A stretch of DNA of 41,125 nucleotides from Triparma columacea (Eukaryota > Sar > Bolidophyceae > Parmales > Triparmaceae), in contig BRYA01000192.1 in the NCBI GenBank assembly GCA_030267965.1, forward strand, positions 1 to 41,125, in the 5' to 3' direction. Positions within the stretch are counted from its first letter, which is position 1, and each line of letters begins with the position of its first letter. Shown here piece by piece: positions 214 to 34,997 of this stretch. The notes beneath the pieces are model-generated. The model was not told where the DNA came from. It did not search any database and saw only the letters and a program-made list of their open reading frames with translations. The translations under genes were made by a program, and so were the position numbers.

Positions 214-3200
214 ATGCTTTGTAGAACAATAGTTAGATTCAGACCATCGATCAGACCATCGAGAGAAGGGAGAGAAGCTATTCATAGATACCTCAATTCC
301 AGCCCCAATTCAGCCCTAAAACCTAACAGACATTCAAACAGACGAACATATACAACTAAAAGAGACATCAAGAGAGAAATCAAGAAGGCATCCTCACTAG
401 CTTCCTCACTAGCACAGCGACTAGAGGATGACCACCATACTGACCACAATACTGACCACAATACTGACCAACATACAGCCGACAACCACAACCACTTCGA
501 TACCACCTCTCATACCCACGCCTCTCCCATTAAGCCTCAACAACCAGTGGAAGGCTCCATCGTCTCCCTATCATCCTTCTTTAGTTCCTTTGACGACTCG
601 CCATCCTTAGACTCCCCTTCTTCTTCTTCCGACATTAAATACATTCCACCCTCCTCAAAAGTCCCTTCACCTACCAGCACAAACCAGCTCTCTGACCTCA
701 ACCCATCCTTCCATCCTCCCCTCTCCCCCCTTTCCCTCTCTAGCATTCTTCCCTCTAATCCTTCTTCCTCTCCCTCCACCGATCGTTACTCCCTTCCCCC
801 TCCCCCCACCGTCGACATAACCCAGTTTGGTTTAGAATCCTCCTCCCCACCTCCGAGTCTCTGGGACGTCCAGCAGTCCATCGAGACCCAGTGCTACGAG
901 CAGGCGAGCGCTGAGTACGCCAAGATGATAAAGGACATGAAGAAACGCAACGACATGACATCCATGAAGCCCATACAGATGGAGTTCGTAAAATGGTTCG
1001 ACCCCCTAACCTCAGCCATAAGAGACGAGCAGGAAGCATGCTTGAAGAGAATATCGGCGGAGGACAGATCAAACTACGGCCCCATACTCGTCCTCCTAAA
1101 GCCCGAGAAGCTCGCCGTAATATCCATGCACACCGTTATCTCCGAGGTCCTCCAGTCCCGTCAGGCCGTCGGTACCCCTTTCGTAACCGTCGTTACAGCA
1201 GTAGGAGAAGCGGTTAGGGCGGAGCTTGGGGTTCAGAAGGTTATGTATGAGAGGGCGTTTGGGGACGGGACGTTTAAGGATAGCAAGATCAAGGAACTTA
1301 TGAAGGGGACGGCACCGGCTAAGAGGGGGAGGAAGGTTGCACAGATTGTTAGGAGAGCAGGTGAGAAAACTGCGGGGAGGGGGGGGGGAGGGAGGGGCAT
1401 GGACACGAAATCGCGCGTTCATCATCATTGTCGTTATCATCGTTAGCTTACTAACCAAACACACACACAAACCACCTTCCCCCACACCTCGCTTCGCTCG
1501 GCGCCCAGACACACTACTGGATGACCCAGACTATAGATGGAGCCCAGAGCTCAAGGCCAAGGTCGGAGCGCTCCTTATCGCCAAAGTAATAGAGAACTGC
1601 ATCGCCTCCGACGGCAAGGAGGCGTTCGTGTACGGTAAGATAAGGGAAGGTTTCAAGAAGCTAATCGGGACCGTGAAAATGTCCGACTTCATGTACGCGA
1701 AAATGATGAACGAAGAGCTCCGTGGCGTCATCCACATCAGACACACCCCGATGGTCGTACCGCCGAAACCGTGGAAAAGTAGGACGGACGGATGCTATTA
1801 CTTTAATAGTACTAGCATGATGAGAACACACGGATGCGAACTTCAAAACAAGGCACTGGACGAGGCGGAACTGGACACGGTGTGCGAGGGACTTAATGCA
1901 CTGGGGAAAACACCGTGGAAGATTAATAAGGAAATGCTGGAGATACAGCTGGAGGCATGGAGGAGGTGAGAATTTTAGGAAGGCAAGGGAGAGCGAGCAT
2001 CTTTAAGGTTCAAGGTCAAACTCTCATCTTTAAGGTTCAAGTTTAAATAACTAACGACACATCTACCACGACTCGCTTCGCCGCCCACTGTAGAGGATTG
2101 ACCCTGGGGGATTTACCTCAAACAGAAGACCATGAACTCCCCGAGGAACCTAAAAAGTTTGATAAATCTAACTTCGCACCAGCACCACTGAATCCTGACG
2201 GGAAGGTTGATAAGGAGCACCCAGACTACAAGAACTACATGGAGAAGCTCTCTAAATACTACGACGAAAAGAAGATATACCAAAAGGTCAAGCAGAGGAA
2301 CTACGAGCTTCACTCACTGAGATGCGACACTCTCATTAAGCTCGACCAGGCACAGCAGTTCCAGGACTTTGAGGAGATATTCTTCGGTTGGAACCTCGAT
2401 TTCAGAGGTCGGGCTTACCCCGTGCCTCCCAACCTAAACCACCTAGGGAGTGACCTCTGCAGGGGGGTCCTTTCCTTCAGTGAGAAGCTCCCACTTACGG
2501 AGAGGGGGTTCTACTGGCTAAAGGTAAACCTCGCGAACCTTTACGGCGCCAACAAGATAAGCATGGACGCCCGTGCTAAGTTCGTCGACGACAACTGGGA
2601 CGATATCGTAAAGTCCGCTCAGGACCCCCTCGGACACCTATGGTGGAACGAAGCCGACGAACCGTGGCAGTGCTTAGCCGTATGCAAGGAACTTACGAGG
2701 GCGGTGGAAAGCGGGGACCCGGCGGGGTACGAGAGCTCGTTGTTTGTTAGCATGGACGGGAGCTGCAACGGACTACAGCATTATGCGGCACTGGGGAGGG
2801 ACAAACAAGGGGGAGCGGCTGTCAACTTGACACCCATGGAAACGCCGCAGGATGTGTACTCTCAAGTTCTGGGGATCGTACTGGAGAAAATCGATGGGGA
2901 GATCGCAAAGGAACTCGGACCAGAGCCGTCCGCGGCGGACATGATGAAGAACGATTGTGCCAAGAGGATTCATGGGCTCGTGAACCGGAAGGTCGTGAAG
3001 CAGACCGTGATGACGTCAGTTTACGGCGTCACGTACATCGGGGCGAAGGAGCAGATCAAGAACAGGCTGGAGGAGCAGTTCGAGGAGATCGGTTTGGACG
3101 TCTACGACGCAGAAGTCGAGGCACAGCTGGAGAACTGCGCCAGGTACCTCGCCCGCCTCACCCTAACGTCCCTGGACGAGATGTTCTCCAACGCCAGGGC

Positions 3201-18300: not shown

Positions 18301-19545
18301 CAATTCTCACCTCCTCCTCGAGCTCACCGCTCATGGAGAGTTTAATGGTCTCGATCCCCTCGTTGCGCTTGGTGACCTCGACGGCGTGCTCGGCGGCCTT
18401 GCTGTTGAGATCCTCGATCTTTCCCTTCATTACCACGACCTCTTCCTTGGAGGTGGAGAGGGTCTTCTGGCACTTGCTGAAGTCGTAGGCGACGCAGAAC
18501 CTCTCGATCCTCTCAATGTCGGCGTTGTTCTTGGACCACTTGAGGTAGTGCTGCTTCTCGCCACGGAGGCGTTCGAGGGTAGGGGTGATTTCCTCGTTAA
18601 GAACCGAGTTGAGCTCATCGACCTTGAGCTGCTTTTTGTCAATGGTCTTCATGGCACTCTGCTTCTTCGTCTCGTACATCCTTGTTCCCGCGGCCTCCTC
18701 GACCATGCCGAGGATTTCGACCGGCTTCATGTTGAGCACCTTGGTGATGCGGCCCTGCATGATGAGGAAGTGGGGGTTGTTGACATTGAGCTGCACCGAG
18801 TGGAAAAGGTTCTGCACCTGACCAGCCTGGGCGGTGTGTCCGTTGATAAGGTATTTGCTCTTCCCTCCAATCAGGACCTGCCTGGTTACGGAGACCTCGG
18901 TGGAACTCTCGTAGCCGACGGGGGAAGTGTTGGGATCAGAGTTGTCGAAAACAATTGTCACGACAGCCTTGTTCACTCCCGCCTGACCCTGCTTGTAAAC
19001 CAACTCGTGGAGGTTTCCGGCTCTGACTTGACTGAGGTTGGTGATTCCCAAAACGAAGCAGATGGAGTCGAGAATGTTACTCTTTCCACTTCCATTCAGA
19101 CCCGTGATGGCATTGAAATGAGGATCAAACCTGTCGAAAGGGGGAGAAGGGGGGTTGAGATGGGGGTCAGAGTTGATAAGGTCGCGTGTGAGGGCGGTAT
19201 TGGCCGCCAAAAGGTCACAGGCGCTCCTCCTTTGAGAGTGAAAAGTTTGATCCTCGACTTCGATTTGAATGTCAAGGTCCAAAAGTAGGACAAAATCGAC
19301 GTTTGTTGTTAAATATGGGGAGTTTTCTGTGTCAATCGTTCCATTTCTTTTTCAAATACAGCACGAATATTACCCCTCTTGTCGAAGAGGCGCTTTAATT
19401 TGGGAGTTTTGCTTCGAAACTTGTGAAGAGCTGAGGAGGGGGGTCCTTTTTCTGGCCAATCAAGCGTTCAATTAACTTACCCTGCAATCACCGTACGGTG
19501 AGCGTAGGACTTGAATCCATCAACGATGATCTCTTTGATATGCAT
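15397..19545 (-). CDS. SMC2: Condensin subunit SMC2 (structural maintenance of chromosomes 2), 3 exons
   Basis: Chromosome-condensation ATPase that pairs with SMC4. Exons are 19545-19481, 19130-18311 and 18165-15397, all in phase, giving about 1217 aa against ~1200 for the family. The start MHIKEIIVDGFKSYA is the canonical SMC2 N-terminus. Walker A is GLNGSGKS at residues 32-39, split from the start by intron 1. A long coiled coil follows, with the hinge near residue 660 (GDVYDPSGTISGG). The second coiled coil leads to the ABC signature LSGGQRS (~1082) and Walker B YILDEVDAALD (~1112). A Lys/Ser-rich basic tail ends ...NKRRKAGVEN. Intron 2 (18310-18166) is a run of imperfect CTCACTCCTCACCT-type repeats on the coding strand. 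It shares a 195-nt divergent promoter region with COMMD4. Confidence 0.97.
18168..18240. repeat. Imperfect tandem repeat inside SMC2 intron 2
   Basis: On the plus strand the intron carries repeated GGTGAGGAGTGAGA-like units (GAGGTGAG / GAGTGAGAG). On the gene's own strand this is a long pyrimidine-rich tract leading straight into the CGCAG acceptor, so it probably doubles as an extended polypyrimidine tract. Confidence 0.7.
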
Positions 19546-23758: not shown

Positions 23759-26392
23759 TCAATATCCAAAGTCAGGAGACAACACCTCGGAGAATCCCCA
23801 TCTCCCCTTGGTGATCCACCTAACGAGCCCATCCCTGACGCCCTCGCAGCACCACGCCTCTGCGGTGTCCTTCCTATTGCACCGCACCTCCATTGACGAG
23901 GAGCTCACAGACGTTGTCAAAACAAATAACAGGCGTGCACCACAAAGGGTCGTCGAGAAAGCCCAACCTGTGACCTTTAGCATTGGCTCTTGAAGGCTGA
24001 CAACACTGCTCCGCTCGTCGCTCGAAATCGCAAAGTCGCTCAAGTTGATCTCAGCGTAGTTAAGGACGTCCCAATTTTCATCGTTAGCCTTTTCGACAAC
24101 ACTGCCGTCGCCCCCCTGTAAACTCCAACTCACGACCTCGCTCATTTTTGACCAAATCTTCCTGAAACCCTCCCCGTCCCCTCCCGCGCACCAGTCTGTC
24201 AGCTTGCACGGGCGCAACCGTCTCCAGAAATCCACCTCGACGTTGTCAGTGTAAACAACCATCCCCGGCGAATAGAGGTCATGAAACACAGCCACCTCAG
24301 TAACTATTTCGAAGGAAGCGAAGGGGGCGGGAGGAAGGTAATACCGGCGGTCGACCGGGTCTTTCACCTTGTAAATGTCAACGATGCCCACCTCGACGGA
24401 AGCGGAACTGTTTATATCCGCGATGGTCAACTTAATCCGAATACCATCGATCTCAAATCCGCACGAGCTAGCAACCGCCAATTCTACCACGTCGCCGTTG
24501 CTCTTTATCGTGAGATTGACCCCATCCATCGGTAGCGTCACTACGGAAGAAGCGAATGACAATGCTTTGTGGTCGAAGTGGCCGCGATACCTGTTGAAGT
24601 CTACCTCGGTGGCTCTTTCCCCCAGAGCGTTGCATAGTGCCATCCTCCACTTCAACGGGACTCCGGATATCTTAATCTTGTCCTCGTCTCGGGAAGAGGC
24701 ATCGTGAAAAAGATTTTTCGGTCTTCCTTTGACCATGGGCGTATCAAAGACATCGTCAATCTTGCTCTTGATTTTCACCATGACGCCAGGAGTGAATCTA
24801 ACATCTTCGACTTGACTTGCAACCTCCTGCGTTTCAAACATGAGGCGCTCCTTGTCTTCCCTCCAAATCTTGAGGGCGAAGTCGTTGACGCTCTCCAAAG
24901 AGATGCCTCCCACAACGTCAAAGAAGGAGTTAAATACCTACGAAGGGGGGGGGAGTGTTAACATATTAAGAAAGATTTGCCTTTCGCTTTTGGCACTTCT
25001 CACCTCCCCCCACGCCTCGCCTCCGTCGCCCCAATCTAAAACAATGTCCGCAACGCTCGTCAGCGTTCTGATCAGGTCTTTGAAACCATCTTCCACCGCC
25101 TGCATTATTTCTCGTCCTATTATTGTCATCATGACCCTCGCAGTGTTCACATCCCCATCCTCCACCCCCTTGGCCGCTTGAACCAGCACCCTTCCCCTTG
25201 CCGTTCTCCACTCCCGGTACCTTTTGACCATGCCCCCTTTGTAATGATCGTAAATGCTCTGCAACCTCCACTCGATTACGTCGTTCCAGTCGGCATTCAG
25301 CCTCTCCACGATGGTCCAACATTCTCCGGTTTTCAAATAGCTCAGGACGCGCTCAAGGCGGGGTTTCGTCAAATCCTTAGCGGTGCTTGAATTGGGTAGA
25401 CCCAATTGAAGGGTAGTGAGATACACGTAGACAGCAAAGTCCAAGTCTGAAGGATCAAACGGACGGCCCTCCATAATGTCTTCGGCCTTTTGGGTCAACT
25501 CCTTGGGCACACTCAGCTGTGCGGAGCCCCAACCTGGGCACTTGACGCGATCGTACTCCAGGGAGCCGAGGTACTCGTGAGCGACTCTATGCGACCAGGG
25601 CTCTGTCTCCTTCCTCTCCTTCTCCATCCCTCCCACCATCCAGCGTCCCGCGAGGGGAGAATGATCGCAGGGCCAATGCTGAGGCTTGACCGGAGGGGGG
25701 ATGACCGCTGCGTCGCCTTGCCCCGCTGATTCGTCGCTGATATCCTTTTCCTGCTGGCCGCCGTCGCCCTCATAGCTGACCCAGCCCCACTCTGCTTCCT
25801 CAGGCTCCTCGTCCATCCTGACGGGCTTGTCTCCGACAGCCTCCCTAGACCATCGCTGCTGAAGGATCTCCTCGACGTCACCTCTCCTCCCCAGCCGCGC
25901 CATCTCCCCCGTTCTGACCCCGCATACACCCCTGGACACCACAACACTCTCGCAGGCCTTGATGAACTCCTTGAAGGCATACTTCAGGTAGCTACCATAG
26001 CACTCCTCGTTGGAGTTGGAGGACTCATGTGCCGCGTACACTTCATCGTACTGATTTCTGAGCCATGTGACGTACTCCACGATCAACTCTTGAACACGAT
26101 AATCTGTATAATCCCGAAAGGCTGTTATGAGAGCCCCCAAGCCAATAATATGTTCCTTGTTTTGTAGTGAGGTAAACGTTGATAGAGGTATAGACTTTGC
26201 CGTCAATATTTTCGCGCAGAAAGCGTCGTTCAGCTCATCTTTCAGAGAGGAGGGAGGATTCGATCCAAGGGAGATGTATTTTAATTTCCTTATTGATGAT
26301 GTAGCGGAGGAGTACGATACTCCGGCACTTTTAAGAACCCGATATACGTCTTCTGTGGGGTCACAGGGAAGGGGGATGAAGCGATCCACCAT
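23759..26392 (-). CDS. Large uncharacterised protein, 2 exons
   Basis: Exons 26392-25004 and 24937-23759 join in phase 0 (GTGAG...CGTAG) to 855 aa. I do not recognise the family. The N-terminal ~170 residues are helical (ITAFRDYTDYRVQELIVEYVTWLRNQYDEVY). An acidic, disordered stretch follows (DEEPEEAEWGW). The centre is helical again, with a charged segment VERLNADWNDVIEWRLQSIYDHY. The C-terminal ~300 residues alternate strands and loops with Val/Asp-rich segments, possibly a beta-sandwich. There is no signal peptide or TM segment. A Tyr/Trp-rich helical-plus-beta design could suit a trafficking or cytoskeletal adaptor, but that is only a guess. Its first ~30 coding bases plus 5' flank recur as a 43-nt copy at 34955-34997. 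Confidence 0.75.
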
Positions 26393-26403
26393 TTACTCGC
26401 AAA
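26361..26403 (+). repeat. 43-nt repeat, copy A (start codon of the 855-aa orphan gene)
   Basis: Matches 34955-34997 in the same orientation at 41 of 43 positions (differences at 26363 and 26393). It covers the start codon and first ~11 codons of the orphan gene on the minus strand plus 11 nt of 5' flank. No similarity continues on either side. Confidence 0.95.
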
Positions 26404-26457
26404 GCCCGTTTTTTTCTTTCAAATTTCGTTTACATTCACTCCCTCGACACGGGAAGT

Positions 26458-27306
26458 TCAACAGATTAATACTACTCCGAACGTATAACACAACACAGGG
26501 ATAGCCGCAATCACGGAATATGGCGTCAACGTCACCATCGCAAAAACCAGAGGCTTCTTAACCCCATAAAAAAGCCCAACAAGGGTTTGGGCAATCCAGG
26601 TCGCAGTACAGGCGAGGATTACCAAGAAAATCTTAACGCTTCTATCGCGCTCAAAGAAAAAGACATCGTTAAAGTCGTCACGTTCATAATCTGTCGCTGT
26701 GTGATTTGCAACACCCCATTGCATATCCGCGCTATCGGAGACCTCCATCCCCTTGGTGACTAAGGTGACGCAGTAAATGGCGGCTGCGGCCGCCATTGAG
26801 AACAAAATTGACACAAAGAGCATCTCGGCAATCACCTTTGTGGTCGTAATGAGGGATGTTGAAAGAGGGACAGTGAAGTCAAGAATTTCCTGATTGACAT
26901 CATAGCCTGCACTCCGAATCTTGCTCTCTATATCCAGCTTGTCTGCGAGTTTCACCAACGATTCGTTGATATGCATATCAAGCGCAGCCCCCTTCCTTGT
27001 CTTTGCCCTCTCCCTCCCTTCCGCCCTTTCTTCAACTAGTGGTTCCTTTATTTGGAGTCTAGTTTCTGCGCTGGCCACCCGCTCCCCGGCGCTCTTCTCA
27101 ATGTCCCGCAGGAATCCAATAACAATCATCGAAACGGGACTCTCTGTCTCTTGATCATCAGCAATCATTTCCAACTCCCTTGAGCTCACATCTTGCAATT
27201 CTTCCCTCAACGTTGACAAATGCGCTCGAATTACCTCGACAACGCGATCCTTAGCACTGACGTCACTTCGGACAGATTCTTCGCCAGAATCGGCGGGAAC
27301 TATCAT
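26458..27306 (-). CDS. Uncharacterised membrane protein with three to four TM segments
   Basis: Single exon, 282 aa, start ATG at 27306. Residues 1-130 are soluble, charged and probably helical/coiled (VVEVIRAHLSTLREELQDV, ERVASAETRLQIKEP). Hydrophobic segments follow at about 163-185 (MLFVSILFSMAAAAAIYCVTL), 226-245 (FLVILACTATWIAQTLVGLF) and 250-282 (VFAMVTLTPYSVIAAIPVLCYTFGVVLIC, probably two passes). I do not recognise the family. It lies 65 nt upstream of the 855-aa orphan gene on the same strand and is compactly packed like its neighbours. Confidence 0.65.
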   Translation of the reverse strand: MIVPADSGEESVRSDVSAKDRVVEVIRAHLSTLREELQDVSSRELEMIADDQETESPVSMIVIGFLRDIEKSAGERVASAETRLQIKEPLVEERAEGRERAKTRKGAALDMHINESLVKLADKLDIESKIRSAGYDVNQEILDFTVPLSTSLITTTKVIAEMLFVSILFSMAAAAAIYCVTLVTKGMEVSDSADMQWGVANHTATDYERDDFNDVFFFERDRSVKIFLVILACTATWIAQTLVGLFYGVKKPLVFAMVTLTPYSVIAAIPVLCYTFGVVLIC

Positions 27307-27537
27307 GATTGACTTGATCTTAAGTAACAGAAATAAATCTCAGAATAATAAATAAACAATCAAAGAAACTTCCGGGACCCTCTTGCATGCCGTTCTTGCG
27401 AGCTTGAATTTTACCGCAAAGGGGCCCCTTTATTGTATCCTCTTCTAGTGTATAACCCTTTATTGAATCTCCCAAATTTCTCCTCACCCTTGATTCCGGG
27501 GGTCCGAAAGACCTCGGACTTGACCCAAAATCCCCAA

Positions 27538-28431
27538 TCACTGCCATTCCTGCTTGTGTACACGCTGATAGTGTATATTCATAGTAATAAGACAATCGAT
27601 AGTGTGTTTGTTAGGTGTATAAGTCATAATTGGCAGGCATTTGACGACAAGGCAGCATTTAGAGACATTTAGATAGTCTCCATCCGGCTTTCTCATCTTG
27701 AAGACCTTGCCCGTCATAGACGCGGTCCTTTCCTGCAGAAGGCCGGGGTCAACGAAGGTGTCAATCACTTCCCTGATATGAGGCATGGATTCTTGGAAGT
27801 TTTTTCCATCGCACATCTTTCCAATGTTTCGGAACTTCCACGGACTGGTTATGGTCATCCCGTCTCTGTAAAGCACGCCGATCACAGCGGCAGTGCTCGA
27901 GGTGCCGCAACCAATAGCGCAGTCAGCCAGTAGCTTTGGGGGGGTCCCCGCTCCCTGCAAGTCAGAAAGCACAGCGTAGGCGCTCTCGACATTCTGGAAG
28001 CTGCCCCCCTTGTGTGCATTCACCAAGAAGCACATCATGTTGACTGAAGGGTCGAGACCGTCAAGTTCAATCTTGATACTCTCATCATAACCTTCTTTGT
28101 CCCCGCTCAACTCGTCCCCACTGTGCTGAATACAGCCATCGCAGGCCTTCAGGTTGTTATAGAAGCAAGCGTCAATCAACATACCTGCAAAGTCAAAAAC
28201 AAGGACAGAGCAATCGAGATCAACGGGGGACATACCCTCGAAGACTACAAAAGGGGGGAATTAGGGTTAGGGTATATCTAATGTGGGATCCTTATCACAA
28301 CGTTGAACAGCGTGGCACTTACAATCCCAGGATAGGCCTAACTCGAGGTCATGACCTTTCGTAAGCTTCACCTCAACATCCCCACCGACATCGACATGCA
28401 CATCGCTCAGTGTGATACCGCTTTTACTCAT
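27538..28431 (-). CDS. TerD-domain (tellurium-resistance/stress family) protein, 2 exons
   Basis: Exons 28431-28323 and 28244-27538 join in phase (GTAAG...TTGTAG) to about 271 aa. The TerD beta-sandwich is recognisable from LELGLSWD followed by DLDCSVLVFD and a fYNNLKACDGCIQHSGDEL segment, then GYDESIKIELDGL. This is the DLD...YNNL...HSGD...DE pattern whose Asp residues bind calcium in bacterial TerD. The second half (ACAIGCG-like turn, SPWKFRNIGKMCDGKNFQ) completes the domain. In bacteria these proteins belong to membrane-associated stress modules (ter operon); the eukaryotic role is unknown. The last ~45 residues after YLNVSKCC do not look like TerD and may be a wrongly read 3' end. The intron contains TTAGGGTTAGGG near 28262. 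Confidence 0.82.
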
Positions 28432-29577
28432 TTTAGTGCTCAAATGGAAGGATTAAATAGGGTTATCAGCCCCCTTCTATAATTGGGGTTAATCAAGTAA
28501 ACACACTTTTCAATATGAAGTTCACTTTTCATAGCATTGTTACGGCTATTAACATACCACGTGAATATTCCCCTATTCCCCTTTCCCCTCCCTTAACATC
28601 TCCGCCGCAATCATTTCCTCTCAATCCCACTTTTCCCCATGCTGGTAACTCCCCACACACCAACCCCATCCAAATTGAAAGTATTCCTGTCCCAAATCTC
28701 GTCGTACCCCACCCCCAACCACCACGGAGCCCACGAACTATCCTTCTGCCGTCACGACCATGTTCCTGCCAAATAGAACAACTCCCCTCTCCTCCCCCCC
28801 CTCCCCATGCCGCTTTAGTGGGATGGGAGACGTTTCACTGGGATTCATAGAGGATCGAGCCTCCCTATATACTGCTCAGCGGAATCATTGGCAGAAAACG
28901 TACTTTTAGACGCAGAGGAGACGAGTAATCATGGCCCAAATCGAGGAAATAGAGCAATGAGGATGGCAGAATGTATCTCCAGAAGACGAATTAATTAATT
29001 TAAAAGACCGTAGAGGGTATAGATTACGTCTATATAATACGTGAGTGGATTAAAAGGGCGCGAAGAACTCTATAACAAAAGCAGTTTATTAGCCCTAACT
29101 TGTTTCACCCCCAGGTCTCCTGGCCGAACTGAACATGGATTGAGTTTTCAGAGATTCACTGCAACTTATTTTATCCGCTGGAAAGCTTTCTTCAAGTGTC
29201 GTCCTCAAATGTAAGCGTATTGCTCCAAAGACCCCCTTTTCGGAAAATTCTTGTGCTTAAGTTGTTATTGCGTGCTTTTGAACGGCCGTGCTTGTCCCAT
29301 TAAGCAGGTTAATCTGAGTGAGATTGGGCAGCAGTTCGTTCTCTTCAACAGCTTTCTTTTTTTGGTGATTGGTTGTACTTTATGCGTAGTATTTTCCTTT
29401 AACTTTCTAGTTGTTCGCGGGGGGGGGGGGGTGCAAGGGCGTGTTGAAGTGTATCAAAGGAGAATTTCCTACCTCGAGGTGACACTCGAGTGCAACTTCT
29501 TCAAATTACAAGTCAATAGCTCAGACTCACACACACTCCTACGCCTTCACTCCTTTTATCCAAAGCGCTTTGAGGCT
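28432..29577. other. Intergenic region between the TerD gene and the Fanzor gene; possible left part of a mobile element
   Basis: About 1.15 kb, more AT-rich than the rest of the window. It contains a Pro-rich reading frame (28515-28850, low confidence, probably not a gene), a decayed spliced fragment (28961-29214, listed separately) and a poly-G run near 29420. No terminal inverted repeat matching the right flank of the Fanzor gene was found by eye. The promoter and 5' UTR of the Fanzor gene and the promoter of the TerD gene must lie here. Confidence 0.4.
28961..29214 (+). pseudogene. Possible decayed two-exon coding fragment
   Basis: A frame opens right after a TGA at 28958-28960 and runs to a GTGAGT donor at 29041. 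A CCCCCAG acceptor at 29112-29114 restores the same frame (leftover AC + G), and it then stays open for 31 codons to ATG-TAA at 29209-29214. The conceptual product reads like real protein (DELINLKDRRGYRLRLYN, then SFQRFTATYFIRWKAFFK). There is no in-frame start codon, and upstream stops interrupt possible earlier parts (a partial MAQIEEIEQ lies before the TGA). I do not recognise a family. It could be the tail of a degraded host gene or of an element-borne gene. Confidence 0.3.
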
Positions 29578-32500
29578 ATGGCCTCTTCACTTGGCCAAAA
29601 GAGGACGAACTCCGGGGGGGGGGGAGGGGGGCAGGGGGGAGGACAGAAGAAGAGGAGGTGAGGTCATGCGAAGGACGGGGAGTAGTTACATTGCTCCGCT
29701 GCGCCGCTCTGCTCACTGCTCCGCTCCTTACACACTCCTCTGCGCCCCTTGACCACAACAGCAAGCAGGTTCAGCAGGACGAGCCGACCATCCCCACCCT
29801 CTCCAAAGCTAGCCCGTTTGGAAGCTTTAAGGAGGAGAATATAAGCAGGCTTGATAAGGAAACACATCAATACACAATTCATGACCAACGTGTCATCGGC
29901 TCAGCAACTGGCCTCATTGAAAGTTGGGAGGAATACCACGACCGTGGATTTTGTGAAGATGATGTCATCGAAGGTGAGTTACGGTAGGGCGCCAGGGTGG
30001 GGATGGGTTTACTCTTTTCTTGTTTTTTGACTAACCACTCAAATTTTGCCACACGCACCACTCTAGAAATGGTCACCATCTGGGCGCGAATCGAATGGTC
30101 CATTTACCACGAAATTTGTAAAGGCTATCCCAAAAAGATGTCCAAAGCTCAACTCGTCGCCAAAGTGAAGGCGATATGGAAAAGGTGGCGCGACCAGGGG
30201 ATATTGTTCCACGAGGCGGTGGAAATATATCTAAAGGAGGGCGCGGAGGGAGTAGAGCAGTTCATTGAAGCGGAGCCGCAATTCGAAAGTGTTAGACCAG
30301 AACTACAGCAGTTCGTTGCTGCAAAACAACAGTTGGAACAGCAGGAAGACAAATACCCCAACTTTGAAATACACGCAAGCGAACTCATTGTACACTACGG
30401 AGTAGGAAGGTGAGATTTTGACTGAGGATGACAGAGGAAAGGACAACTGCAACCCAATTTCCCACACACATGATGTCTCATTTTTCACTTCTCAAAAACG
30501 TTCCCAGGGGAGACGCTCGCCACATCGTTTCAGCGGGAACAATTGATATTTTGTTTAGGTAAGTTTAGCATGCAAGAAGTGGACTTTGCGGAATTCGCGA
30601 CGCGACCTGCGTGAATATGCAATAAAAGCATTTTGAGATTTTGCCGGGGTGGGGGGAGGTGGGGAGGTGGTGTCACCAAAAAGTTGAAGCCAAGAATTAG
30701 AGGCTGAATATACCGTTTCCAGGAGTCACGACCGCACGGGGTTTGCCACCCCCCGGTCGTTTGCGAACACAACTTCCGCGATCCTCAACTTTGTTTGCAA
30801 GTGGAGGACATGAGCCCGAATGGTCAACACTACCTTTTGCCAAAGATCCTTCATCTGCGCACTAACAACATCGATCTCCCCACAGCTACAAGAAAGATGG
30901 AACCATCCAAAAGAAGGTGAGAAGCGTTACAAAGGACTTCTTCGTCAGATCTCAGATTCTCACCAAACACCCGAACCCCCTCTCCAACAGTTTGGGTTGA
31001 TCGATTTGAAGAGGAGCTCCCCTCACAAAGTTGCTGATCTAAACAACAAGAAAAGCAATCTCCACCACACGTACGCGCTCCAGCTTGCGCTTTATCGAAA
31101 AATGCTGAAATATTCGTTTGACATTGATGTGTCCATGCAAGATACTTATATCCTTCAATGTCACGCCGACAACGTTGACTCTAAGCCTAACCTCATCAAG
31201 GTGATGGTAGATAAGAGCAAAACGGCCCAGCGTCTGCTTGATGATAAAGCAGAACAAGAAGATGAAGAGGAAAAGGATGAGCTCCCAAACGAAGACCCCC
31301 TTACCACCTCCTCGGCCCCTTCTATCACCTCAACCACCTCCGCGGACCCTTCCATCATCCCAACCACCTCCGTGGCCCCTTCCACCACCACCACGTCCAA
31401 CCATATGTCTATCAAGATGTCCCTCGCAAGATTGAAAATGTCCCCAGAGTTTGAACAGGGGATCACAATTTTGGTAAAGAAGCTAAGTAGGTGGCTCGCA
31501 CAAGCTACGAACCTTGGCAAAGTTTTCTTCGCTGACCAATACAAGAAAGGGGACAAGGCCGCAGACCCCACCATCGTTCCCTTACATATCCAAACCCTTT
31601 GGGATTGGATACTGAAGGCCTCCTCACAAGAAGGGTTGAGTAAAACTTATGATGGGAAACTCGCAGGGCTAGGTTACGTCGAAGCTCTAAGGGAACTTAA
31701 TAAGGAGGTGAGGAGTGGGTCAAGGAATTTTGAGGTTGTGTACCATTGTCTCACCCTTGCTAAATTCCCTCCACCAACAGCTTTATACAAATGAAGGGGT
31801 AAAGGTGAGAATGGGAGATGGTGTACAGTGCCTCCATAACTTGTGCCTCCATCGCTCCGCTCCGCTCCGCTCTTTTCCTCACGTCACCTCCTCCCCCGCC
31901 CCCTTTTCCAGTTGGAAAGTTGGAAGGGGCTTGACTCGTTCAAAGACAACCTTGCAAAACAACTTACAACGGAAGCCACAAACATGGGTGAGAAAGGATA
32001 GTCTGGTCGCTGTTGTTTTCGTCGGGTCAATTCGCTTCTTTTACTGACTTCAAAATCTCGGTCATTTCTCGCTTCACTCGCTTCTTCGAAATACAGTCAA
32101 GTCAACATTCAACCAACAGGTTGATAAAACCATAAGTATGATTGTCTCGATGGAGATTTTTAAATATAGGGCCGACAATGAGGGGGGATACCCACGAAAG
32201 AAGTCGAAAAAGAAGTTGAAAAAGTGGAAGAAGGAAGTCGCGAAATTTCTTCTAAACCCCGACCCTGAGGCTTCCGCCCCTGGTTTCATCCCTTACACCT
32301 CCTCATTTAAGGAAAATGGGGAAAAGATTCAGGGTAAGATCTCGGAGCTCAGGACGGTTTTCAAAGTCTATCTCGGGAAAGTCAACGAACTCATGCCGTT
32401 GGTTGACCCGTTGGTTGTTGACGGTATTGTTAAGATTCCAGTTGAGATTACCAACTTTGAATATACAAGCGAGAAAGAGGTGAGAATTGTCAAAAGCTAC

Positions 32501-33940
32501 TGTATAGCAACGCCCCCCCCCCCCTCCCCTCCCTTTTCAACACGCTTCTTTACTCACACACTTCTCCCACCCCACCCCACCCCCATCTGTTCCACCAGAT
32601 CACGTACACTTATCAGTATCCCAACCAAGGCCAATCTACAAGGCTTACAAGAGCGTCTGAGGCGACAGCGAAAGTACCAAAAGAAAGGACCCACGTGTTG
32701 ACGTCGTGGGAATGTAAACAGTTTGGTGAAGTGTTCAGGGACCTTCCTGTCGGCACTCGAGACAACCCCACTCAGTTTCCCACCCTCTACCTAAGGAGGG
32801 GGAAAGATGAAAGGGATCTTATCCCATCCCTCATCAAGTACCGAAGCATCAACAAGAATGACTTGGGTACGATCGACATCCTACACAGCCTCCTCTACTA
32901 CCTCGATTGTTACAGGATCGAGATGAAGGAAGACTCCGAGAAATACTACAACAACCTCCACTCCGATGTCATCGCCCGACACTTCAACTTCAAAGGGAAA
33001 AACAAGAAGGGGAAGAACAAGAAGGGGAAGAACAAGAAGGAGTTTAAGTTCTCAGCCTCCAACATCTTTCCGAGGAACGTCATGAAGTCCTCCTCAATAA
33101 TTCCCCACCATGAGTTCCAGCCTAATCACTTCCAAATATGCGGTTTAGGTAACGTTTGGGACTTCCGAAAGATGTTCTTGCAAAATGAGAAGCTGGTGAA
33201 GGGCGACAAGTACGATAGCAAAGGTGCAGTAAATAAAGCTCTAGGTGGTCCGGAGGGTGAAGGAAAGAGAAAGGGGTACTGCCGACGATTCTTCAACAAT
33301 AATTTGCGAGCACTAGATGGTATGACAGTCTTTGGAAATGGGGAAAGAGCAACAAAGCTCTCAAAACTCTTTGCCAACCACATCACAACCGATGGTGTTT
33401 GGGTGACGGTATTATTCAACGTGCCCAACCCTACAACCTCTGCAACCTCTACAACCTCCTCTTTCCCTACCAAAGGCGAAGGTGTTGACCTCAACTCTGC
33501 TACACCCCCCCCTGTAAAAGTGGGTGAAAAGCTAGGTAAACACCTTTTTGTTTGGGGGGGTGACCCCGGTAGACGTGACATGATAACGGGCGTTCTTGTG
33601 CATGGAAAGGAGGAAGACGTTGGCAAAGTTGTGAAGCTCAGTACTAAGCAGCATGTTTTTGAGAGCGGCCGCAATTTCCTCAGCCACAGTACAACCCAGA
33701 TGTACAAGGGAGCAAAATGGGGAGAGAATAGTACTGTTCAGGTGAGAAAGGACGCACCTTCACTACCCTAACCTGATCGCAACCCTCTTTCCGGATCTAT
33801 CTCTCACTTTGATTTTTGTCCCAACCCCCCCCCCCCCCCCATCCTTCTCAGGAGAAACTGACCAACATCAATCGTCCCACCCACAAGACATTTTCTGCAG
33901 AAAACTTGAGGTCGTACATTAGGTACATGAACGAGAAGGC

Positions 33941-33972
<32 letters not shown>

Positions 33973-34721
33973 AGAGTCTGAGTCTTGGAGACACAATCCT
34001 CAACCTTAAGATCGATTCCAAATGGAGGGAACACAAGGGGGATGTCTATAGTAAGAGGGACGCCAGTCTGGACAAGTTATGCAACAAGTTCGCCGAACCG
34101 ATGCGCAAGTACAACAAGATGGCCCGCAAGCACAACAAGAAGAAGAATGTGGAACAGATGGAGATGGGGAAGACACTGATCGCTTACGGAGCGGCAAATG
34201 TCAACTCTGTTGGATTCGGCTATGCTCATGCTCCCCAGAAACGTCTTCGCCACCGCCTACAACACGTCCACAATATCGATGTGATACTCATCGATGAGTG
34301 GCGCACGTCACAGATTCTGTCAAAGTTTGACATTGACAAGGAGAACAAGAAGGAGGAAGAGAAAACGAAAAGGATGAAGGGTTCGTCGTCGTCCTCGAGT
34401 GACATGGACATGGAGAATGATTCCCAACCCCCCATATTCCTGAAGACTCCACTTAGAGACTTGAGGAAGGTCACAAAAGAGGAGTACAAGTCGGGGAAAT
34501 GGAAGCGCATGATGTGCTACCAAATCTACAGCGTACGTTACGGCTTGGTAAATGGGAGGAGGGTTTATGTTCACAGGGACGTAAACGCAGCCAAGAACAT
34601 TGGAGCTATCTACATATCTCTTGTCGAACTCGGAGTACGCCCTGAAGAGTTCACCTCTCCGAGACAGAAGGAAGAAAGGAAGAGGCGGGAGGCAAAGGAG
34701 AAGAGCACCAAGAAAAAATGA
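29578..34721 (+). CDS. Fanzor (eukaryotic TnpB-like RuvC nuclease) fused to an N-terminal PD-(D/E)XK nuclease, 11 exons
   Basis: Exons 29578-29657, 29762-29973, 30067-30409, 30508-30558, 30886-30916, 30991-31707, 31781-31804, 31912-31987, 32097-32479, 32599-33741 and 33852-34721 join in phase to about 1309 aa. The N-terminus is Gly-rich with an NLS-like GQKKR. Residues ~60-310 are a RecB/Cas4-like nuclease: FHEAVEIY (His146, Glu150), AGTIDIL (Asp225), LIDLKRS (Asp244, Lys246) and ALQLALY (Gln270, Tyr274). An acidic, Ser/Thr-rich linker spans ~318-372. Residues ~375-1309 are a Fanzor: TTDGVWVTVLF before RuvC-I GGDPGRRDM (Asp961), RuvC-II LIDEWRTSQ (Glu1169) and RuvC-III HRDVNAAKNIG (Asp1263). 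The zinc ribbon (normally TS..C..C and C..C) is degenerate, with only one Cys. TnpB and Fanzor enzymes are RNA-guided DNA nucleases of mobile elements. A split into two genes is unlikely because exon 6 holds the end of one domain, the linker and the start of the other. Confidence 0.85.
32995..33039 (+). repeat. 15-nt coding minisatellite in the Fanzor gene (3 units)
   Basis: Three in-frame units of GGGAA(A/G)AACAAGAAG code GKNKK repeats, a Lys-rich loop in exon 10. It lies before the RuvC core, so it may be a nucleic-acid-contacting or merely tolerated insertion. Confidence 0.9.
33942..33977 (+). repeat. GAGGGT hexamer repeat in the Fanzor gene (about 6 units)
   Basis: Five perfect GAGGGT units and one GAGAGT code an (EG)n run in exon 11, between RuvC-I and RuvC-II. 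It is in frame and so length-variable without frameshift. Confidence 0.9.
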
Positions 34722-34910
34722 AAATGAAAAAAAACAAAAAATCCATTCACCAGAATGGTCTGTGACGTTCACCACAACGAGGAGGGGGGTGAGGGTTAGG
34801 GTTACCCTAACCCGTCACACATTCGTGTCACGGAAACTGAAGAGACATTCCAGAATGTCCAGATAATTCCAGTGGCACGAGGCCCGCTTGGAACCTGCCC
34901 AAGCATAGAT
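34722..34910 (+). ncRNA. Candidate Fanzor guide (omega-like) RNA scaffold: four hairpins after the stop codon
   Basis: Directly downstream of the Fanzor stop are four perfect stem-loops. They are CCATTC/GAATGG (34743-34748 / 34753-34758), GGGTTAGGG/CCCTAACCC (34793-34801 / 34805-34813), GACATTC/GAATGTC (34844-34850 / 34853-34859) and GCTTGG/CCAAGC (34886-34891 / 34899-34904). In TnpB and Fanzor systems the guide RNA scaffold overlaps or follows the nuclease 3' end and the guide lies beyond the element's right end. The location fits. Transcription and scaffold identity are inference only; some stems could be a terminator or chance. Confidence 0.3.
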
Positions 34911-34954
34911 CGAGATCGTTAGCCTACTAATAATTGATTTAGAAGAGTAATTTT

Positions 34955-34997
34955 TCCCAGGGAAGGGGGATGAAGCGATCCACCATCTACTCGCAAA
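34955..34997 (+). repeat. 43-nt repeat, copy B (fragment of the orphan gene start)
   Basis: Near-identical (41/43) to 26361-26403, same orientation. On the minus strand it would code MVDRFIPLP then diverge, so it is an isolated fragment and not a gene start. It lies ~50 nt beyond the last hairpin downstream of the Fanzor gene. Confidence 0.95.

Follow-up and report, generated by a model that had tools for sequence, protein, structure and literature searches.

A Triparma columacea gene predicted to join a RecB-type exonuclease to a divergent Fanzor1 nuclease

Introduction

Fanzors are eukaryotic RNA-guided nucleases related to CRISPR Cas12, and the reason why mobile elements keep them is unsettled. 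A question raised by a locus of Triparma columacea (contig BRYA01000192.1, assembly GCA_030267965.1) is whether a Fanzor is joined there to a second nuclease within a single gene, as a first-pass annotation of the DNA had proposed, and what such a protein would do. The window, meaning the whole stretch of DNA analysed, is 41,125 bp long, and the gene lies at 29578-34721 on its plus strand. The explanation that we favour, with reasonable though far from complete confidence, is that one nuclear gene encodes a RecB-type exonuclease and a divergent Fanzor1, followed at its 3' side by a candidate omega-RNA and carried on a probably inserted segment, with homing by cutting and resection.

Results

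A spliced frame across both nuclease halves

Splicing of 11 exons (29578-34721, plus strand) yielded a protein of 1309 amino acids with a single terminal stop. The proposed gene model was thus reproduced, and all ten residues named in it (H146, E150, D225, D244, K246, Q270, Y274, D961, E1169 and D1263) were found at their given positions. With the alternative acceptor of exon 9 at 32121, the product has 1301 amino acids, also with one terminal stop. The exons are as follows.

29578-29657, plus strand: exon 1, basic glycine-rich leader (residues 1-27)
29762-29973, plus strand: exon 2, beginning of the exonuclease domain
30067-30409, plus strand: exon 3, exonuclease motif with H146 and E150
30508-30558, plus strand: exon 4, GTID motif with D225
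30886-30916, plus strand: exon 5, YKKDGTIQKK
30991-31707, plus strand: exon 6, D244-x-K246, Q270xxxY274, the linker and a possible start of the Fanzor module
31781-31804, plus strand: exon 7, eight codons
31912-31987, plus strand: exon 8, placed by frame and splice model
32097-32479, plus strand: exon 9, with the alternative acceptor
32599-33741, plus strand: exon 10, middle part of Fanzor1 with TDG (903-905) and DPG with D961
33852-34721, plus strand: exon 11, IDEWRTS with E1169, RD1263 and RPxxF, lacking the C4 zinc finger

Nine of the ten introns begin with GTGAG and one with GTAAG, and all end with AG. In a codon model derived from five neighbouring open reading frames (ORFs), the assigned frame beat both others in all 11 exons, with slightly negative scores for exon 3 (-1.3) and exon 7 (-2.8); the frame had been picked as stop-free, which favours the gene model in this comparison. 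When exons 3, 10 and 11 of the gene itself served for training, the assigned frame was also the best in the remaining eight exons. Phase requires exon 8, and frame and splice signals continue across exons 6-9. We consider it highly probable that a single gene runs across both nuclease halves.

The N-terminal half resembles a phage exonuclease

In profile searches with the spliced sequence, residues 37-324 matched the 'exonuclease' family PHROG 298 (span 59-304, E value 1.6e-13), the PDDEXK family DUF3799 (E value 4.3e-5; 23.8 bits, below the cut-off of 26) and the nuclease end of AddA (E value 0.0012, far below the whole-protein cut-off), and the reversed sequence, used as a control, matched none of the exonuclease profiles. 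Taken alone, exons 3 and 6 each had PHROG 298 as the top match, the former at profile positions 95-147 (E value 0.092) and the latter downstream of these, at 182-283 (E value 3.6e-7). The catalytic motifs of RecB-superfamily PD-(D/E)XK nucleases are D, DxK and QxxxY, and the corresponding set D225, D244, K246, Q270 and Y274 is present. These data identify residues ~59-304, as judged from profiles and motifs, as a phage-type RecB-superfamily PD-(D/E)XK exonuclease with predicted activity. The half thus shares profile matches and the D...DxK...QxxxY motif with PHROG 298, DUF3799 and AddA, but unlike these it is part of a spliced nuclear gene and is joined to a Fanzor.

The superfamily proposed by the first-pass annotation is therefore upheld by the three profiles, but its 'Cas4-like' label fails. 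Cas4 is likewise a PD-(D/E)XK member of the RecB superfamily, and its nuclease core is surrounded by four iron-sulphur cysteines; here this cysteine set, a Cas4 family match and a CRISPR context are all missing. Residues 1-330 contain just C91, C115 and C296, so that membership was rejected, and Cas4 families were unmatched in Pfam, PADLOC and AddA-type profile scans of the gene pieces (PADLOC gave zero matches for three pieces). In a six-frame search of the whole genome (a 37.85-Mb assembly of 789 contigs), PHROG 298 matched solely at the present locus; a common genomic repeat was rejected on this ground, and introns may conceal further loci. The sole phage match found by tblastn (33% over 72 residues, E value 0.9) was judged to be due to chance.

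The C-terminal half carries Fanzor1 fingerprints

A comparison by hhalign with a narrow viral family (19-row alignment A1) was uninformative (probability 1.7%), and a broader Fanzor1 profile was therefore built from three solved Fanzor1s (PpFz1, SpuFz1 and GtFz1) and the viral family of IMG/VR record L010. The viral source, protein P0003 of L010, was found by a sequence pattern; it had 1368 relatives at E <= 0.001, and 19 from the best 120 of these 1368 led to the solved Fanzor1s. On this profile, residues 641-1309 scored 34.9 bits, whereas the best control (reversal, 2000 shuffles and 103 ORFs of the window) reached 6.6. The alignment pairs TDG, DPG, a YG strand, IDEWRTS, RD and the C-terminal RPxxF with the known Fanzor1s. 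The RuvC-I DPG motif (GGDPGRRD, at D961) is aligned with PpFz1 and GtFz1, the alternative RuvC-II glutamate E1169 in IDEWRTS falls in the same column as those of SpuFz1 and PpFz1, and the WED-type TDG motif (ITTDGVWV) occupies residues 903-905. The Pfam search with exon 11 gave a weak TNB match (21.0 bits; cut-off 26.3).

In the available passages of PMC10711439, DPG together with the alternative glutamate is the fingerprint of Fanzors, TDG is a feature of Fanzor1, and a C4 zinc finger is carried by 'many' Fanzor1 members; in the 2013 Fanzor1 motif, as excerpted from PMC3627910, this finger comes after TS and before RD. Under a strict reading of that motif, the protein is not a classical Fanzor1; by the 2023 fingerprints, it is one. 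Overall, the profile score and the aligned motifs bear out the Fanzor assignment, and residues ~641-1309 are best described, from their sequence, as a divergent Fanzor1 with predicted omega-RNA-guided cleavage. The profile test had been set beforehand as a possible refutation, and it placed both halves in their families.

The search of IMG/VR with alignment A1 returned L010 only. Pattern matches in three other records (L008, L009 and L011) were judged to be chance, and a further pattern search found none. The genome search with P0003 returned no match, the present gene included, and is thus silent on further Fanzors in the genome.

A structured 3' region and a probably inserted segment

Two findings go beyond the earlier annotation, namely the fold of the DNA past the stop codon and a pair of flanking direct repeats. 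The features concerned are these.

26361-26403, plus strand: left 43-bp direct repeat, from the repeat search
26404-34954, no strand: bracketed low-GC segment of 8551 bp, its left part a repeat mosaic
29207-29460, plus strand: repeated 5' leader immediately upstream of the gene, with 69-76% copies on contigs C773, C342, C321 and C765
34722-34997, plus strand: structured 3' region, candidate omega-RNA, its final 43 nucleotides being the right repeat
34955-34997, plus strand: right 43-bp direct repeat, from the repeat search

The 276 nucleotides that follow the stop codon, right repeat included, had a sense fold z score of -4.25, and none of 200 shuffles was equally stable. When both strands of the window were tiled (296 tiles), a tile overlapping this region had the lowest z score (-4.59; runner-up -4.24), and the exact 276-nucleotide stretch gave -4.9 in sense and -2.9 in antisense (40 shuffles each). 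Outside the right repeat, the region occurs once in the genome, and the Rfam scan of the window gave zero matches. Published omega-RNAs/reRNAs sit at the element end and extend into the flank, according to the excerpts of PMC10711439, which makes this region a natural omega-RNA candidate; it probably is the omega-RNA of the gene and would, by this analogy, act as its guide. A perfect hairpin inside it (34793-34813) is a head-to-head telomere-type repeat. The sequence CCCTAACCC has four occurrences in the window, the expected number being 0.31. The tile that ranks second for structure (19045-19320, minus strand, z -4.24) lies on the antisense side near SMC frames.

The two 43-bp repeats are 95% alike (two differing positions) and were found at no further site in the genome. 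The bracketed segment has a GC content of 0.479, compared with 0.529 in the remaining window, and the lowest-GC stretch of the same size begins at 26051. The segment is probably inserted DNA, with the Fanzor gene at its right end. The left repeat contains the ATG of a minus-strand frame (24938-26392), and the same ATG is present in the right copy, so the insertion seems to have been placed at a gene start. Should the guide come from the right repeat, the left one, with its two differences, might be a target as well.

The left third of the segment is a mosaic of sequences from other contigs: 26469-27320 and 27516-27682 are 93-95% like C769, and 27689-28434, which lies inside a TerD-domain gene (27538-28434, minus strand; Pfam E value 3.2e-20), is 98% like C514, where the copy adjoins a second, diverged TerD stretch. 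A 293-residue frame (26458-27339, minus strand) has C-terminal hydrophobic stretches by eye and a 93% DNA copy on C769; no reliable Pfam match was found for it. Another repeat, 28463-29130, is 93-94% like its three longest copies (C603, C586 and C177) and down to 87% like the others; it extends further at these three contigs, is shortened at the left here and has partial copies elsewhere. On C765 (locus L037), the similarity of the 5' leader continues into a first exon that resembles that of the Fanzor gene, being basic too and having its donor site in a comparable position, before the sequence runs into N, and another gene may thus share the leader.

Many contigs, among the matches listed, carry (CCCTAA)n/(TTAGGG)n repeats at a terminus, and the neighbouring frames of the window encode SMC, Nup160-like, U-box and leucine-rich repeat proteins. 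These telomere-type ends and protein types indicate eukaryotic nuclear DNA.

Evidence against a mobile fusion gene, and its rivals

A number of observations weigh against the explanation that we favour, and the first group concerns the joint. The gene model rests on predicted splices, from which a single joined transcript would follow; and because the firm Fanzor signal starts only in exon 10, the connection between exons 6 and 10 depends on four predicted introns. The earlier claim that the fusion was free of any doubtful splice was accordingly too strong. Exon 6 does hold the linker and the close of the first domain, as had been described, but the start of the Fanzor, also placed there, was not above chance: on the family profile, residues 340-640 (the REC part) ranked 20th of 2105 sequences, although the best placement of the N-terminal part of the family, at residues 379-429, lies directly past the linker. 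Introns 1, 5 and 7 each contain a stop-free frame whose score is small but positive (3.7, 4.0 and 1.8, respectively), and intron 6 contains one with a score of -7.8. The sole match for the exonuclease piece (one of 103 candidates) was P0002, which comes from another deposited contig (seven member sequences, the longest 7353 bp) and is similar across the exonuclease end, the linker and beyond, differing in exon 6 at 5 of 239 positions; this near-identity speaks for the single gene. Its frame, in turn, is open through intron 6 with 1 difference in 28, compared with 8 in 24 for the intron 5 frame; it is judged too close to demonstrate selection.

The open and nearly unchanged intron 6, as well as the non-significant REC start in exon 6, would fit two adjacent genes that have been misjoined, one encoding an exonuclease that stops at ~31792 in a retained intron 6 and the other a separate Fanzor of ~780 residues whose initiating ATG lies in exon 9; Fanzor1s reach ~800 residues in the passages of PMC10711439. 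We regard such a misjoining as unlikely, since both ends of intron 6 are canonical and its coding score is negative, the joined frame is the best-scoring one in each of exons 7-9, and a Fanzor begun in exon 9 would miss an N-terminal part that is present upstream in the family (alignment by eye).

The second group concerns the state of the Fanzor. Its C4 zinc finger is missing, with C1242 the sole cysteine in residues 1101-1309; the structure model of exon 11 is poor (predicted local distance difference test, pLDDT, 42.8; predicted template modelling score, pTM, 0.22); and the gene was found in a single copy in the genome. Together with low-complexity insertions and ten introns, the lost finger and the single copy would suit a single gene whose Fanzor is domesticated or decaying and no guided cutter, so that the exonuclease or DNA binding would be its sole function. 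In contrast, D961, E1169 and D1263 are kept along with the conserved motifs around them, and a structured candidate RNA follows the gene, making decay a rather improbable account.

The third group concerns relatives and mobility. A relative spanning both halves was not found in the full-length protein search or in the IMG/VR searches. In the former, scoring covered the 7999 candidates with the most words in common, and none reached E <= 0.01; many of these were probably drawn, as we would guess, by low-complexity stretches. Single-sequence searches with either half gave no usable match in PDB and IMG/VR. Convincing terminal inverted repeats were not seen in the 300 bases inside each segment end, and no transposase or recombinase was recognised among the Pfam-scanned frames, the scan of the window not being exhaustive. 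The patchwork of other-contig sequences upstream, as well as the frequent homopolymer runs in the window, might even point to an assembly artefact joining two unrelated pieces in a repeat-rich stretch; this is very improbable, however, as the coding frame is open across 1309 codons and P0002 carries exon 6 on a different contig.

Discussion

The fusion gene that we favour shares TDG, DPG, the alternative glutamate, RD and RPxxF with Fanzor1 proteins (SpuFz1, PpFz1, GtFz1 and the L010 family), and it shares with them a structured 3' region after the gene, near the segment end. Unlike them, it has an N-terminal exonuclease, lacks the C4 zinc finger and has a REC part unrecognisable by sequence. 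Beside the viral Fanzor1 on L010 lie frames (827-1755, minus strand) that we take, from their motif, to be GIY-YIG-like. Their arrangement resembles that of PGv-1, described in the excerpts of PMC3627910 as a Mariner element with separate genes for a transposase, a GIY-YIG nuclease and a Fanzor1. In PGv-1, too, Fanzor1 is accompanied by a second nuclease, but the genes are separate, the nuclease fold is different, and a transposase and terminal inverted repeats are present (PMC3627910, same excerpts). The present protein also has 1309 residues, compared with mostly 600-700 for Fanzor1s in the available part of PMC11423790.

The architecture had been presented as unfamiliar, in agreement with our literature search: no Fanzor-exonuclease fusion was found among the Fanzor and TnpB papers listed, at the level of titles and abstract beginnings, although a survey entitled 'Programmable RNA-guided DNA endonucleases are widespread in eukaryotes and their viruses' could contain one. 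Passages of PMC3627910, PMC10711439, PMC10432273 and PMC11423790 do not mention such a fusion, PGv-1 being the nearest case.

As for the mechanism, the omega-RNA would guide the RuvC domain of the Fanzor to a matching site, where it would make a double-strand break. The tethered exonuclease, if active, would then resect the freshly cut ends with whichever polarity it has, and repair from the element-bearing homologue would copy the element in, that is, homing by cut and resect. Whether the protein is a self-contained natural cut-and-resect editor, in which a guided Fanzor cut and tethered resection favour homologous copying of the element, is a more tentative proposal that we hold to be possible rather than probable; under it, the 43-bp duplication could have been left behind by ends that were resected or cut with a wide stagger.

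If true, a Fanzor fused to an exonuclease of the recombination type would suggest that its purpose is break repair, and two point mutants would allow a direct test of this. The protein would, in addition, be a nuclease that comes ready-made with the means to resect the cut it has produced. Engineered Cas-exonuclease fusions exist, and the present gene would be their natural counterpart, a natural cut-and-trim genome editor.

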